Source: a virus. From it: DNA of 31,631 bases. The translations under genes and the position numbers were made by a program. Shown in pieces: positions 609-31,106 of the stretch; positions within the stretch are counted from its first letter, which is position 1; each line of letters starts with the position of its first letter. The notes beneath the pieces were generated by a model that saw only the letters and a program-made list of their open reading frames with translations, was not told the origin of the DNA and searched no databases. The stretch covers positions 1 through 31,631 of the IMG/VR virus record IMGVR_UViG_3300009155_000159; one strand, written 5' to 3'.

Positions 609-1391
609 ATGCACTACTATCAGCATCATATTGGTGATTTCATCAAGGACACATCGTTCTTGACCAATGAAGAAATCGGCATTTATCTCAAGTTAATTTG
701 GCTTTACTACGACTCTGAAAAGCCATTGCCAAACAATTTGTTTGAACTTGGCATGAAAACAGGGACTAGGGACAACCAAGTTGTTCTTGAGGGTCTTTTA
801 GAGATGTTCTTTATTCTCGATGAGCAGAATAAATGTTGGAATCACACTAGATGCGACAAAGAACTTGAACACTACAAACAACAATTAACTATTGCTTCTA
901 AGGCTGGAAAAGCATCAGCACTTAAACGAGCGATGAACAAGAATCCAACGAGCGTTGAACAGACGTTAAACGAGCGTTCAACAGAGGTTCAACCAACCAA
1001 TAACCAACAACCAATAACCAAGAACCAAGAGAAGAAGACACTCGGCAAACGCCTCGCTTCTGATTTTAGTTTTCCAAAAGAATGGGAAGACTTCTGTGTT
1101 GAGCAAAGACCAGAACTTAGCCCTGTCAAAACCTTTGACCAATTCAAGGATTATTGGATTTCTCAAGCTGGTCAGAAAGGTGTGAAGTTGGATTGGTTTG
1201 CTACTTGGCGTAATTGGGTGAGAAGCACTAACGCACCAAAAGTTAACCCTGCTGACAGAGTAAGGCTTACAGTTGCGCCATCAAATGAGCCTGATGCTGC
1301 TCTTGAGAAAATAAAAGCAGATGAAAAAGTAACTCGTCCTCCAACTCCAGAGGAACGAGCAATTCTTAGTGCCTACAGGAGAAAAGCATGA
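609..1391 (+). CDS. DUF1376/YdaU-type phage replication initiation protein
   Basis: 260 residues. The N-terminus (MHYYQHHIGDFIKDTSFLTN, then IGIYLKLIWLYYDSEKPLP) matches the DUF1376 (YdaU) pattern of phage replication proteins with a winged-helix fold. Residues about 105-145 are a low-complexity N/Q/T linker, and the C-terminal half (SDFSFPKEWEDFC, then FKDYWISQ and WFATWRNWVR) looks like the tail domain of replisome organisers. The DNA for the linker carries regularly spaced 22-bp repeats, just as the lambda origin lies within gene O. It is the only replication gene seen, so it presumably recruits host helicase and polymerase. The stop overlaps the following HNH start (ATGA). Confidence 0.8.
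   Translation: MHYYQHHIGDFIKDTSFLTNEEIGIYLKLIWLYYDSEKPLPNNLFELGMKTGTRDNQVVLEGLLEMFFILDEQNKCWNHTRCDKELEHYKQQLTIASKAGKASALKRAMNKNPTSVEQTLNERSTEVQPTNNQQPITKNQEKKTLGKRLASDFSFPKEWEDFCVEQRPELSPVKTFDQFKDYWISQAGQKGVKLDWFATWRNWVRSTNAPKVNPADRVRLTVAPSNEPDAALEKIKADEKVTRPPTPEERAILSAYRRKA
925..1035 (+). repeat. Iteron array, candidate origin of replication
   Basis: AACGAGCG occurs at 925, 947 and 969, exactly 22 bp apart, and GTTNAAC occurs at 954, 965, 976 and 987, exactly 11 bp apart. These are tandem repeats in helical phase. They run into a strand-asymmetric A/C-rich stretch (about 991-1030) with ACCAATAACCA at 996 and 1010, which could be the unwinding element. The location inside the replication gene, in the linker between its two domains, mirrors lambda ori within O. 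Confidence 0.65.
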
Positions 1392-5951: not shown

Positions 5952-7201
5952 TTGAAATTCCCTACAAGCCAAGGGAACACCAACTAAAGGTTCACGAGTT
6001 ACTGGATGGCAAACGCTTTGCTGTCGTAGTGGCACATCGTAGGTTCGGTAAGACTGTCGCTGCGCTTAACCACTTAATCCGTGAGGCGGTGCTAAACGAG
6101 AAAGAAACTCCTCGCTATGCTTACATTGCGCCTACCTATGGACAGGCAAAGCGTGTAGCTTGGGACTATCTCGTTAAATACACTACTCCGCTAGGCGGTA
6201 CTAACAACATCTCAGAGTTACGAGTTGACTTCTGGGGTAGGCGTATTCAACTATATGGCTCAGACAATCCTGATTCCCTGCGAGGTCAATACTTTGATGG
6301 GGTAATCATTGATGAGGTGGGTGACCAAAATCCTAAGATATGGACAGACATTGTTAGACCTGCTCTGACTGACAGAAAAGGTTGGTGTCTTTTTATTGGT
6401 ACGCCTAAAGGACATAACCACTTCAAAGAGTTGCGAGACAGAGCAGAAACTGATGATGGATGGGGCTTGCTAGAGTTTAAAGCCTCAGAAACTGGCGTAG
6501 TTGACCAAGATGAACTAAACGCTGCCAAGCATGAGATGGGTGAGGATAAGTACCGCCAAGAATTTGAATGTAGCTTTGACGCTGCCGTAGAGGGTTCATA
6601 CTATGGGCAAATCCTCAATGATCTGGAAGACAAAAAGCATATGCAGGATATTCCCAGAGAGGAATTGAGCAGAACTTTTACTGCTTGGGACTTGGGCATG
6701 GGTGACTCTACTTCTATCTGGGTGGCTCAGTTAGTTGGTACTGAGGTGCGCCTTATCGACTACTACGAGAATCATGGAGTTGGACTAGACCATTACGTCA
6801 AGTGGATTAAGGATAACGACTATCTCAAAGCAGAGCATATATTGCCCCATGACGTTAGGGTCAGAGAACTTGGCACAGGTAAGAGCCGTATGGAAATGCT
6901 TGAGGAATCAGGACTTGAAGTCAAGATTGCACCAAGGATGGGACTAGATGATGGTATCCAAGCGGTAAGAAGACTATTGCCAAGGTGTTGGTTTAATGTA
7001 CCAAAAGTGCAGATAGGGCTTAATTGCTTGAGAAATTACCGCAGAGATTACGATGAGAAGCGTAAGATATTCTATGAGCGTCCATTGCATGATTGGTCAA
7101 GTCATGGATCGGACTCATTCCGCTACTTAGCCCTTGGATTGGATGAAGGACATTCAACGTGGTCTAAGCCTATTAACTCAGCACCGAAATGGATTGTTTA
7201 A
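5939..7201 (+). CDS. Terminase large subunit (ATPase/nuclease)
   Basis: 420 residues. Walker A is AHRRFGKT (32-39), Walker B is GVIIDE (121-126) and the coupling motif is FIGTPKGHN (152-160). The C-terminal RNase H-like nuclease starts at TAWDLGMGDSTS (first catalytic Asp, D251), continues at ILPHD (D305) and ends at GSDSFRYLALGL. All landmarks of a functional packaging motor are present. With the P22-like portal and a circular assembly, headful packaging is the likely mode. The stop overlaps the next start (TAATG). Confidence 0.95.
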   Translation: MGEVIEIPYKPREHQLKVHELLDGKRFAVVVAHRRFGKTVAALNHLIREAVLNEKETPRYAYIAPTYGQAKRVAWDYLVKYTTPLGGTNNISELRVDFWGRRIQLYGSDNPDSLRGQYFDGVIIDEVGDQNPKIWTDIVRPALTDRKGWCLFIGTPKGHNHFKELRDRAETDDGWGLLEFKASETGVVDQDELNAAKHEMGEDKYRQEFECSFDAAVEGSYYGQILNDLEDKKHMQDIPREELSRTFTAWDLGMGDSTSIWVAQLVGTEVRLIDYYENHGVGLDHYVKWIKDNDYLKAEHILPHDVRVRELGTGKSRMEMLEESGLEVKIAPRMGLDDGIQAVRRLLPRCWFNVPKVQIGLNCLRNYRRDYDEKRKIFYERPLHDWSSHGSDSFRYLALGLDEGHSTWSKPINSAPKWIV

Positions 7202-9474: not shown

Positions 9475-11835
9475 ATGGCAGTTTCTAAAGCTGAAATTGT
9501 TAACTTTCTTCAAGCTAATCCTAATATGAGTGATGCAGACATTGCGTCTGCTATGGCTCAGTATGGTGTAACTCCTGCACAAATGGCTGCTGCTACAGGA
9601 TTAAGTGAAGGCCAAGTTATTTCTCGTGTTGCGGCTACAGTACCACAAGGTTCTTCAATTACGTTAGGTGACACTCGTATTGTTCCTAATTATCAAGTAA
9701 TTGGTTCTGGTGAAGACCAACAAATTGGTGCGCTTGAGAATATCTATGTAGACAAAACTACAGGCGATCTTAACTACAAAGCACCAGTAGGATCAACATA
9801 TCAACAACTAAGTGCTGATGGTACGTTTGAAAGAACAGGCGTTATTCAAAAAGATCAGTCATTTTTGGGTGGTTTAGCAGGGGTTTTAAATGACCCAATT
9901 ATTCAAGCTGCTTTATTAGCCAGTGGTGTTGGTGGTGCTATTGGTGGTAGTTTAGGTCTTACAGGCTCAACAGCACAAGCAGTTGGTACAGGTTTATTCA
10001 AAGGTGGAAGCGCACTTGCTGGTGGTGCTGACCTTGAAGACGCTTTAAAAGCTGGGCTTTTAAGTGGTGGTTTAGTTTATGGTGGTGCTGCATTAAACAA
10101 TGCTATTAAGTATCAAGATGTTCCTGTTGACTTCAATACGATGACAACAGATGAAATCAATGATGCACTTGACATAAATTATAGAAATGATCTTTATCGT
10201 GCTGGTTTAACTAATCCGCAGATTAAAGGTTATTTAGCAAATCCTGCAAGTATTTATGATGTAACTTCAGAACTAACTTCTACTGATTTAGCAACGAATC
10301 CAGTAATAACAGATGATACAGTTAATGTTTCTGCAACAACTACACCATCTTTAAATAACTTATTAAATACTGTTGCTAATCCAACAGTAACTGTTACTTC
10401 ACAAAAAACTCCAGAACAAGTAGATCAGTCTGTACTTGACTTAATTAACAGTCAACTTGCAACTAATGTAACTACACCTACTACATTAGCTAATGTTGAA
10501 GTTACAGGTAATAAAGGGGTGTCTTCTGTAGATACTACGGAAATTGATAGATTGTTAGGTTTGCTTCCAACTTTAAATACAGTAGCACCAGTAACTACTA
10601 ATTTAACACCAACAGTAAACGTAGTTGGTCAAAAACCAATAGAAACTACAATTATAGATAAGCCAATTATTGAGCCTACTTTGCCAGTGCGTCCTACTAT
10701 TGGAAATAACGAAGTAGTTATTACGGGCGATAGACCTACAAATGCAACTGATTTAATTTCAGCTTTAGTTCAACCTGTTACTAGAACACCAAGTATAAAT
10801 GTTGTAGCTCAAAAACCAGTGGAAACAACAGTAATAGATAAACCTATTATTGAGCCTGTAGTAGAACCTGTAGTAAAACCTACTATTGGAAATAATGAAG
10901 TAGTCATTACAGGTGAAAGACCAATAAATATAACTGATTTATTAGCTTCTTTAGTTCAACCAACTTCTATAACACCAACAGTAAATGTTGTAGGTCAGAA
11001 ACCTATTGAAACTACAATTATAGATAAGCCAATTATTGAGCCTTTAGTAGAGCCTGTAGTTAAGCCAACAATTACAGAACAGGTTATTACAGGTGATAGA
11101 CCTTTAAATATAACTGATCTAGTTGCTTCTTTAGTTCAACCTGTTATTAAAACATCAACAGTAAATGTTATTGATAAAAAACCAGTAGAATCAATTATTG
11201 TAGATAAACCAATTATTGAGCCAGTTGTTAAACCAATTGTTAAGCCAGTTATTCCAGAGCAAGTAATTACAGGTGATAGAACTATAAGCCTAGATAATTT
11301 ACTTTCTACTTTAGTTGCACCAACTACCTTAACTCCTACAGTAAAAGTTGTTGATAAAAAACCAGTAGAGCAAACTATTGTAGATAAACCTATCATTGAG
11401 CCAAAACCGCCAGTTGAGCCAGACCCTTTAAAAGTAATACAAGATACAGCAAAAATTGTTAACTTGCTTAATACTGATACTGGTACAAATCAAACTGTAA
11501 CTACTACTGATACTGGTTTCCCAATTGTTCCAATACCAGCAGATTGGACAAATCCTTCTGCTACTGGTGTTGCACCATTTACACCATTGCCTCCTATTGA
11601 TTTTGGTACTCGTGAGTTACTTAGGGGTACTCAATGGGAGAAATTCCTAAGTCCTACCTATGGTAAAGTACCAGAGCCAGTTAAGTTTACTCAGCCATCT
11701 AACATGAGTTATAGTGATTTAATGAGTATCTTGGGTGGTAACAAAATGCCAGCAAGATCAAATTTAAGCATTAACGACATTATTTCTGGAATACAAAACC
11801 AATATGGACAAGCATCTAGTAGCAAAGTGGGCTAG
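9475..11835 (+). CDS. Large repeat protein, candidate virion/ejection protein
   Basis: 786 residues. The N-terminus (residues 3-45) is a small helical module (SKAEIVNFLQANPNMSDADI, YGVTPAQMAAATGLSEG). Residues about 130-205 are Gly/Ala-rich and hydrophobic (IQAALLASGVGGAIGGSLGL, GGLVYGGAAL), as in membrane-active ejection proteins. Residues 378-646 consist of tandem 60-62-residue repeats, each with V-N-V-V-G-Q-K-P, then DKPIIEP, then V-V-I-T-G-D-R-P and an LxSLVQP helix. The C-terminus is unrepeated and Pro-rich. It lies between portal and scaffold, so a head-internal or neck role is likely. Exact function unknown. Confidence 0.65.
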   Translation: MAVSKAEIVNFLQANPNMSDADIASAMAQYGVTPAQMAAATGLSEGQVISRVAATVPQGSSITLGDTRIVPNYQVIGSGEDQQIGALENIYVDKTTGDLNYKAPVGSTYQQLSADGTFERTGVIQKDQSFLGGLAGVLNDPIIQAALLASGVGGAIGGSLGLTGSTAQAVGTGLFKGGSALAGGADLEDALKAGLLSGGLVYGGAALNNAIKYQDVPVDFNTMTTDEINDALDINYRNDLYRAGLTNPQIKGYLANPASIYDVTSELTSTDLATNPVITDDTVNVSATTTPSLNNLLNTVANPTVTVTSQKTPEQVDQSVLDLINSQLATNVTTPTTLANVEVTGNKGVSSVDTTEIDRLLGLLPTLNTVAPVTTNLTPTVNVVGQKPIETTIIDKPIIEPTLPVRPTIGNNEVVITGDRPTNATDLISALVQPVTRTPSINVVAQKPVETTVIDKPIIEPVVEPVVKPTIGNNEVVITGERPINITDLLASLVQPTSITPTVNVVGQKPIETTIIDKPIIEPLVEPVVKPTITEQVITGDRPLNITDLVASLVQPVIKTSTVNVIDKKPVESIIVDKPIIEPVVKPIVKPVIPEQVITGDRTISLDNLLSTLVAPTTLTPTVKVVDKKPVEQTIVDKPIIEPKPPVEPDPLKVIQDTAKIVNLLNTDTGTNQTVTTTDTGFPIVPIPADWTNPSATGVAPFTPLPPIDFGTRELLRGTQWEKFLSPTYGKVPEPVKFTQPSNMSYSDLMSILGGNKMPARSNLSINDIISGIQNQYGQASSSKVG
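10606..11412 (+). repeat. Tandem 180-186-bp coding repeats
   Basis: Repeat units begin at 10606, 10786, 10972, 11152 and 11332 (periods 180, 186, 180, 180), the fifth being partial. Each encodes a half-repeat with V-x-V-x-G-Q-K-P and DKPIIEP and a half-repeat with VVITGDRP and LxSLVQP. A degenerate earlier copy can be traced at about 10345-10605. Confidence 0.85.
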
Positions 11836-30066: not shown

Positions 30067-30318
30067 TTAAAATGGAATGTCGCTATCGTTAAAAAATTCT
30101 TTTGATTTAACAGGCTTTTTGTCTAATGAAGAATCAGCGTTTTTATTCTTGATAGACAGAGACATAAACTTCTGTCCATCCTTACTGACTTTTAGCCAAG
30201 CAGATAGCCAGAACTCAACCCCATCTACATTTAGACTTCCTTTGTAATCAGGAAACTTAGCATCGTCTTTCCTGTCGTTCTTGAACAAACTTCCTCGGTT
30301 TGTATTATCGTATTCCAT
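30067..30318 (-). CDS. DUF736-like protein with SSB-type C-terminal tip
   Basis: 83 residues. The N-terminal part, NRGSLFKNDRKDDAKFPDYK then GSLNVDGVEFWLSAWLKVSK and FMSLSIKNK, matches the DUF736 pattern. The end, EFFNDSDIPF, copies the acidic DDDIPF tip of bacterial SSB, which recruits many replication and repair proteins. Together with ERF next door, the likely job is ssDNA binding in the phage recombination module. SD AAAGG. One base separates it from the ERF stop. Confidence 0.8.
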   Translation of the reverse strand: MEYDNTNRGSLFKNDRKDDAKFPDYKGSLNVDGVEFWLSAWLKVSKDGQKFMSLSIKNKNADSSLDKKPVKSKEFFNDSDIPF

Positions 30319-30319
30319 A

Positions 30320-30925
30320 TTAACCTTTCGCTTTCTTTAATGCACTTCTTATTTGACTAGGAAGCAATGTCCATAGAGCAACTTTCTGTTCATCGTCTAG
30401 GTTCTGTGCTTCCAATATATCCCAAGCTGCCTTGGAGACTCCTGCTTCACAATGGTGTATTAAATCCATTGCTAATTCTTTGAGAGATTCCATTTCCTCT
30501 GAAGAAAGGTTATCTGTTGCGCCTTGTGTTGGCGTAATAATTACTTTATCTTTAATAGGCGCAGATGAATCCAGAGCATCATGCTCAACGATTTCCATTG
30601 CTGTAACCCATAGGTAGCGTCTAGTGTATGTCTCGACTGCACCAAGGTTCTGAATAGGATGGCAACCTTTAAGGTTAGCTTCTGCCATTGGGCTAGTAAT
30701 TACTAGACTAGTGCCATCGTCTGTGTCTGTGATTGTTAGACTTGCTATTTCAGAATCGTAGGAGACTACGCCACACAAGCCAATGTTATAAAAAATTTCG
30801 GTAATTGTTGGGATAAAGTCACCAAGTTCAAAGTAGCTGTAGCCAGCAAACTTATTGTGACCTGACTTTTTGAGCGTTGCTTCTTGCAAACTCATTCGTG
30901 CTGCCATTAACTTCTTGTGTACCAT
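30320..30925 (-). CDS. erf: ERF-family single-strand annealing protein
   Basis: 201 residues from ATG 30925, which has AAGGA 6 nt upstream; a GTG at 30940 is less likely. ERF marks: HNKFAGYSYFELGDFIPTIT, SLTITDTDDGTSLVITSPM, QNLGAVETYTRRYLWVTAME and IVEHDALD. The C-terminal part is helical and charged. ERF proteins anneal ssDNA and are used for genome circularisation or recombination of terminally redundant phages such as P22, which fits this circular map. Confidence 0.88.
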   Translation of the reverse strand: MVHKKLMAARMSLQEATLKKSGHNKFAGYSYFELGDFIPTITEIFYNIGLCGVVSYDSEIASLTITDTDDGTSLVITSPMAEANLKGCHPIQNLGAVETYTRRYLWVTAMEIVEHDALDSSAPIKDKVIITPTQGATDNLSSEEMESLKELAMDLIHHCEAGVSKAAWDILEAQNLDDEQKVALWTLLPSQIRSALKKAKG

Positions 30926-30926
30926 T

Positions 30927-31106
30927 TTAATTTCCTTCACTTAAATATTCTTGAATCATTGCTTCTTTGTCTTCCTCGTATAAATCCTCAAAAGGTACGA
31001 AGTGGTTTTCATGGCAACATGAGCCAGATGTTTTTAATTCAGCACAGTAGCAGCAGTAAGTACCTTGTAGGTCTTGGATTGCATCTTGTCTTGTTAGCTT
31101 GGTCAT
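30927..31106 (-). CDS. Small Cys-rich protein
   Basis: 59 residues. Cysteine cluster in GTYCCYCAELKTSGSCCHEN, giving a CCxxC...CCH set that could hold zinc; the rest is acidic and helical (VPFEDLYEEDKEAMIQEYLS). Overlaps the upstream gene by 4 nt and ends 1 nt before the ERF ATG. The SD for ERF lies in its last codons. Function unknown. Confidence 0.6.
   Translation of the reverse strand: MTKLTRQDAIQDLQGTYCCYCAELKTSGSCCHENHFVPFEDLYEEDKEAMIQEYLSEGN

Follow-up and report, generated by a model that had tools for sequence, protein, structure and literature searches.

The DNA encoding the linker of a DUF1376 protein in the window, i.e., the whole stretch of 31,631 nucleotides analysed here, is likely a phage replication origin, which lies in the gene of its own initiator and has a two-period anatomy. 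This assignment supports the probable phage origin proposed in the initial annotation but remains inferred, with no data on binding, strand opening or replication. Shown are selection at the DNA level on both repeat elements, their phase, recurrence across phages and covariation of the iterons with a protein segment. The anatomy of 11-bp iterons followed by 7-bp A/C-rich units is new, its layout is lambda-like, and a similar two-part layout recurs in many other phages. No tie between DUF1376 and an origin was found in the open-licence literature searched.

The repeat array and its host protein

The features on which the argument rests are as follows:

609..1391, + strand: DUF1376 gene, 260 amino acids, proposed replication initiator (PF07120 at 70.8 bits against a cut-off of 30.1; PHROG primosomal protein families)
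612..869, + strand: winged-helix domain, residues 2-87 (PF07120 match, model and structural matches)
900..920, + strand: segment KAGKASA, residues 98-104, proposed iteron-specificity segment (covaries with GTTNAAC arrays; end of the long helix 80-109)
922..998, + strand: iteron array of seven 11-bp units (consensus TTnAACRAGCG), of which 922-983 also shows a 22-bp super-period
942..1055, + strand: linker modelled as disordered, residues 111-149 (pLDDT under 50)
995..1029, + strand: five 7-bp units AACCAA(T/C/G) forming the A/C-rich tract, a putative element for opening or for single-strand binding
1044..1388, + strand: C-domain, residues 146-260 (first 66 residues possibly resembling the DnaT single-stranded-DNA-binding domain; best structural match 4ou6, Z 4.5)

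The array is real and, with its seven 11-bp and five 7-bp units, longer than first described. Both spacings reported in the initial annotation were confirmed: AACGAGCG occurs at 925, 947 and 969 in steps of 22 bp and nowhere else on either strand of the window, and GTTNAAC occurs at 954, 965, 976 and 987 in steps of 11 bp, with 18 single copies elsewhere in the window. All seven 11-bp units (922-998) carry AAC at the identical position. The A/C-rich, strand-biased stretch said to follow is also present, as the A+C-richest 35-mers of the window begin at 990-994 (32 of 35 A+C). The further claim that the copies share one helical face held only in part; a turn of B-DNA takes about 10.5 bp, so that 11 bp is not exactly one turn, and the seven units together rotate away from a common face by about one third of a turn.

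Across the whole 31.6-kb window, periodicity peaks in the array region at each of the three lags, with matches of 0.591 at lag 11 (77-bp stretches), 0.727 at lag 22 and 0.80 at lag 7 (42-bp stretches). These values exceed the maxima of 100 first-order Markov windows (0.515, 0.582 and 0.629, respectively). When synonymous codons were redrawn 20,000 times, no redraw matched the iterons at lag 22 (0/20,000), four GTTNAAC copies were reached in 5/20,000, and the lag-11 match gave p 0.0009; for the A/C tract, lag 7 gave p 0.0009 and the lag-14 match was reached in 0/20,000. The copies are spread over all three reading frames because 11 and 7 are not multiples of three. A protein-level repeat, which had been discounted from the outset, was hence rejected on the grounds of frame usage and the synonymous nulls.

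The position of the array in an inter-domain linker, as initially claimed, is borne out by the structure model, in which a confident N-domain (helices, wing and the long helix 80-109) precedes a disordered linker and a less certain C-domain. The N-domain exceeds the curated cut-off of PF07120 and structurally resembles winged helices best (top match the ORC2 winged helix, Z 7.0), although a Z of 7 can reflect a common arrangement. DUF1376 is the only Pfam family above its cut-off for this protein, which thereby falls outside the lambda O sequence family, and among the PHROG families one named "replication initiation protein" weakly matches the C-terminal part (6.4e-06). A search of solved structures by sequence returned one match, to an unrelated protein (E 0.29), and Foldseek returned nothing at E<=0.001 for either model.

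DnaT is a single-stranded-DNA-binding protein with a role in the loading of DnaB (PMC4129139), and a weak resemblance of the C-domain to DnaT is possible, with mixed sequence support that stays below cut-off. Modelled alone (pLDDT 73), the predicted C-domain matched DnaT84-153 with dT10 best (Z 4.5; next 3.7), in a comparison with only 60 aligned chains. Its profile match reached 97% to a pair including a bridging relative and 23% to the YdaU DnaT domain alone. No Pfam family, PF17948 included, was matched by the C-domain of the window, and 2 of 21 relatives matched DnaT below cut-off (best E 0.0047).

The initial annotation had drawn an analogy to lambda ori in gene O, of which the layout held and the AT-rich, weak-duplex part failed. 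The A/C tract (994-1032) is not a weak duplex, ranking 9812 of 31591 by nearest-neighbour stability among the 39-mers of the window; an AT-rich unwinding element was rejected at this place for lack of such support, and within the first 2.5 kb stability is lowest for the 39-mers that begin at 1425-1435, in an HNH gene. A DnaA-assisted origin was likewise rejected, as no DnaA box (up to one mismatch) lies within 5 kb of the array and all eight boxes of this kind are found at 6541 or beyond. The turn in GC skew near the window start, one of the checks initially suggested, tracks gene strand and was set aside as confounded.

None of the 13 window ORFs searched was recognised as a helicase-loader gene. 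The DUF1376 gene is directly followed by one for an HNH endonuclease (PF13392, 1388-2059); since the latter is missing at this place in two related loci, L002 (small ORFs) and L014 (an ORF resembling a DNA methyltransferase by eye), it could be a homing insertion next to the proposed origin. Upstream of the initiator gene, the ORF 130-498 weakly matches Ren-like exclusion proteins (E 0.0021). Farther away, a 786-aa ORF (9475-11835) contains long imperfect protein repeats (IIDKPIIEP etc.), part of it with a GC content below the surroundings. Genes for an Erf-like annealing protein and a single-strand-binding protein (30067-30940, strand -) are found in opposite orientation near the far end of the record; replication and recombination genes would possibly be adjacent if the genome were circular or permuted.

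Selection on the linker as DNA

For a test of silent change, 26 relatives were picked from 80, all with KAGKASA at the same residue and an open frame and with exact repeats removed, and the fraction of comparable codons that differ silently from them was determined. This fraction was 507/1959 (~26%) in the winged-helix N-domain and 34/207 in the segment after it, 27/501 (~5%) in the iterons, 3/271 (~1%) in the A/C tract and 13/236 at residues 142-153, and again 326/1029 (~32%) in the C-domain and 281/710 in its tail. Silent sites of the linker elements are consequently 5 to 25 times more conserved than those of the domains. At the same time, amino-acid change amounted to 0.125 and 0.193 in the linker parts; the values for the N- and C-domains were 0.088 and 0.202, respectively. 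Silent change is thus suppressed in both elements while residues vary, and therefore iterons and A/C tract are under selection as DNA. With the four most divergent relatives alone, the gap for the iterons is smaller (16/61, 0.26, in the iterons and 1/36 in the A/C tract against 108/264, 0.41, and 64/143, 0.45, in the domains).

Periodicity was compared with the synonymous null in 32 distinct linkers drawn from the window and the 80 relatives, giving a mean z of 2.75 at lag 11, 2.84 at lag 22 and 2.29 at lag 7, whereas the same lags in the two flanking domains, taken as controls, gave values between -0.15 and 1.06. Array phase and sequence are hence retained in close relatives. The initial annotation had named absent or unphased repeats in such relatives as its refutation; neither was met, and silent changes are far fewer than in the flanking domains.

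Segment classes and their iterons across phages

A broader sample of 496 loci plus the window, 372 of them with the N-domain and 279 unique, yielded 136 distinct linkers, in which three classes were distinguished by the segment after the winged helix. Linkers of the GKAS class (33) contain at least two GTTNAAC in 28 cases; they total 88 copies, where synonymous redraws predict 10.3, with spacings of 11 (41 times) and 22 (11 times) and frame counts of 37/26/25. In the GGRP class (19), 14 linkers have at least two AACCCA/AACCGG, with 61 copies against 15.1 expected by the same redraw, spacings of 11 (26) and 22 (7), and frames 23/22/16. For the ARW class (48), the corrected count is 31 linkers with GCAATG-type repeats; an uncorrected pattern had counted GCATTGC twice (19 spacings of 1), so that its 105 copies, 34 linkers and frame counts were too high. 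The repeat of another class occurred twice in 0/100 classified linkers. A further 36 of the 136 fit no class, 35 of which have none of the three repeats twice and one of which has GCAATG twice. Across linkers, the spacings 11 and 22 dominate, i.e., these are helically phased direct repeats as the criterion for iteron plasmids asks.

The second element recurs as well. A short tandem tract (match >=0.8) was found in 78/136 linkers, with period 7 in 50, 6 in 24 and 5 in 4, a coding-strand composition of A 49, C 32, T 13 and G 6 per cent, and a mean best match of 0.796 compared to 0.623 for synonymous redraws. The strongest periodic signal lay inside the linker in 52 of 81 cases and elsewhere in 29. 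By eye, the DUF1376 linkers of L306, L323, L471 and L494 show 12-bp in-frame repeats, in L306 followed by a 6-bp ACAACC tract, i.e., a like layout with codon-compatible periods.

Segment and repeat agree in all 73 scorable linkers of the 136, AGKASA being paired with GTTnAAC, GGRP with AACCCA and ARW with GCAATG; left out were 63 linkers, namely the 36 unclassified ones and 27 of known class that lacked a scorable array or a complete N-domain. It should be considered that segment classes and repeat patterns were set after viewing linkers that also enter the class counts and this test. On the winged-helix tree, segment and iteron class each require 12 parsimony changes, compared to at least 27 for shuffled labels. 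On the C-domain tree, which covers 48 of the 73, they need 20 changes, within the range of shuffled labels (mean 21.7, minimum 17), while the same 48 need 11 on the winged-helix tree. As the labels fit the winged-helix tree but not the C-domain tree, N-domain, segment and iterons move as a unit, whereas C-domains are swapped.

Within the N-terminal part, the segment looks to be the better predictor of the iteron than the winged helix, with the reservation that the pairs compared are not independent. L286 (GKAS, GTTnAAC) and L064 (ARW, GCAATG) share 64% of the winged helix and differ in their iterons. In a comparison of 250 unique proteins with the wide GKAS pattern, same-segment pairs under 30% identity had the iteron class in common in 603/607 cases, and 86 of 10,994 pairs disagreed over all identities (in neither case independent pairs); this set also contained one GKAS protein with AACCCA repeats and 56 classified proteins without repeats. 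Frozen rules performed weakly on 29 more distant DUF1376 proteins; these came from 44 loci, in 33 of which an HMM recovered the domain, after removal of 4 that had been used before. At least two of the expected copies were found in 1/8 ARW and 1/7 GGRP members and at least one in 4/8 and 5/7, respectively; GKAS members were absent. The three segment classes do not cover the whole DUF1376 family.

Scans of DNA alone, blind to protein, approached the pairing from the other side. Three GTTNAAC at 11 bp occurred at no fewer than 120 places. In this set of 120, DUF1376 ORFs account for 93 (domain E<0.01, some twelve of them with a weak or partial domain) and other ORFs for 20, while 7 lie outside any ORF of 100 aa. 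Of the 93 arrays, 89 sit 15-56 codons past the domain end. The wide GKAS segment lies at most 45 codons upstream in 103 of the 113 ORF places, against a background of 5.9% in 659 random segments; the pattern was widened in the course of the analysis, and the earlier strict one gave 67/113. After removal of places seen before and near-copies, 58 ORF places remained, with the wide segment in 48, the strict one in 30 and GGRP in 0. The scan for AACCCA arrays gave at least 121 places; of these 121, 49 lie in DUF1376 ORFs and 24 without an ORF of 100 aa in array orientation. GGRP lies upstream in 66/97 ORF places (background 2.3% of 815) and in 44/66 new and distinct ones, with GKAS in 1 of these 66; part of the matches without GGRP belong to other, unidentified protein families.

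Among the non-DUF1376 ORFs with a GTTNAAC array, the segment was present in 14/20. Four were tested further: three with the segment proved to be Lin1244_N, and one without it matched no family. The Pfam-supported Lin1244_N cases (L598, L617, L618) show an AG[KQ]xSAxxR-like segment and a phased GTTNAAC array, and look-alikes with a similar segment and array are L544, L548, L576, L592, L607, L610, L615, L627 and L633. In L592, L598 and L617, the tract after the array is A/G-rich rather than A/C-rich.

A bolder reading of these pairings, which at present could fall either way, is that AG[KRQ]xSAxxR, NGKxGGRPKK or AxARW represents a swappable DNA-reading module that fixes the iteron (GTTnAAC, AACCCA or GCAATG, respectively) of in-gene origins, with the first pairing in at least two families (DUF1376, Lin1244_N) and the 6- or 7-bp A/C-rich tract serving as a non-AT-rich opening element. 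Should it be correct, the sequence of an origin could be read off its protein. This testable segment-to-iteron rule is the most interesting claim of the study. Origins have rarely been mapped in phages for which nothing but sequence is available; if the origin assignment is true, sequence alone would suffice to locate, type and test those of a large phage class, exclusion could be predicted where phages have like iterons, and a domain still named as of unknown function would gain a role. It would also provide naturally matched pairs of protein segment and DNA repeat for studying how initiators choose their sites, and would allow one to ask whether an opening element must be AT-rich.

Proposed mechanism, alternatives and known systems

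In the mechanism we infer, the DUF1376 protein would bind the 11-bp-phased iterons in its own gene via the winged helix and the AGKASA segment, and several bound copies would assemble and, as a complex, open the 7-bp A/C-rich repeats next to the iterons. The DnaT-like C-domain may then hold one exposed strand of the A/C tract and recruit the host DnaB helicase and its loader, as inferred from the role of DnaT. Since the duplex of the A/C tract does not melt easily, the bound protein would need to force it open, or opening would have to take place elsewhere.

An alternative, though unlikely, option is that the iterons are an operator through which the DUF1376 protein or another regulator controls transcription of the replication operon, with the true origin elsewhere. 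Plasmid initiators often combine binding and autoregulation, which favours this view, and selection and covariation show cognate binding sites at most, not an origin. However, the array lies ~310 bp inside the gene and not at its start, and an operator needs no A/C tract, which nevertheless adjoins, is better conserved at silent sites (3/271) and recurs in 78/136 linkers. An even weaker case, which we regard as very unlikely, can be made for a site of another DNA transaction, e.g., packaging or a programmed exchange of N- and C-domains with shuffling as its result. N-domain and iterons are indeed shuffled relative to C-domains, so that the region borders recombination junctions, but the unit sequence matches the initiator's own segment rather than a packaging or recombination protein, and the layout is that of origins in initiator genes (PMC7466680; PMC6316719).

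The repeats could also be by-products of slippage or recombination in a tolerant linker and lack any DNA function. In favour of this, the linker is disordered in the model and variable in its amino acids, tandem tracts are common in such places, and some relatives have 12-bp and 6-bp in-frame repeats. Silent-site conservation 5 to 25 times that of the domains, a unit sequence that tracks the protein segment class through 12 switches, and arrays found from DNA alone that sit in initiator ORFs with the segment make this explanation highly improbable, too. Selection on the linker peptide, e.g., on an ST.VQP or TNNHKPIT motif, with the DNA pattern as a secondary effect, would fit the similar linker peptides of same-class relatives. 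This is practically ruled out, as periods of 11 and 7 break the frame and place copies in all three frames, the synonymous nulls are exceeded, and silent change is suppressed though residues change.

An origin inside the initiator gene has several counterparts. At the ori of lambda and Stx phages, initiator-binding repeats, 4 and 6 in different phages, lie in the middle of gene O beside a compositionally biased tract (PMC7466680), and the array described here similarly consists of phased direct repeats between the two domains of an initiator in its own gene. Lambda iterons are longer than 11 bp, whereas the window has 11-bp units with a 22-bp super-period; 7-bp A/C-rich repeats replace the AT-rich region, and no easily melted element adjoins the array; and the protein combines the DUF1376 winged helix with a putative DnaT-like C-domain, with no P gene recognised in the window. 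The array probably works like lambda ori in gene O, but we do not class it as lambda-type because Pfam places the protein outside the lambda O family and there is no AT-rich element; binding or replication data are lacking. Direct repeats inside the gene of the initiator that binds them are also known from SPP1 oriL within gene 38 (PMC6316719), where, unlike at the array, unwinding takes place at an AT-rich element; SPP1 also encodes a helicase and a helicase loader of its own, while no loader was recognised among the 13 window ORFs searched.

The Rac prophage, which is said to have an active origin, oriJ (PMC3945230), encodes in ydaU a like DUF1376 N-domain with a GKAS-like segment (AAGKASV), and in the Rac-SA53 phage DUF1376 is joined to a Pfam DnaT domain, with a P-like helicase loader gene next to it. 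Compared to the window, the linker repeats of K-12 YdaU are degenerate, with only three GTTNAA 33 and 12 bp apart and no phased array. Finally, initiators of iteron origins hold double-stranded sites as well as one strand of the opened element (PMC4081077; PMC10797057; PMC5043065). The window shares with the plasmids RK2 and F the helically phased iterons, a winged-helix initiator and a repeated element beside the iterons, theirs being bound on one strand; it differs in that the plasmid elements are AT-rich 13-mers or 8-mers, whereas its own units are 7 bp long, A/C-rich on the coding strand and located within the gene.
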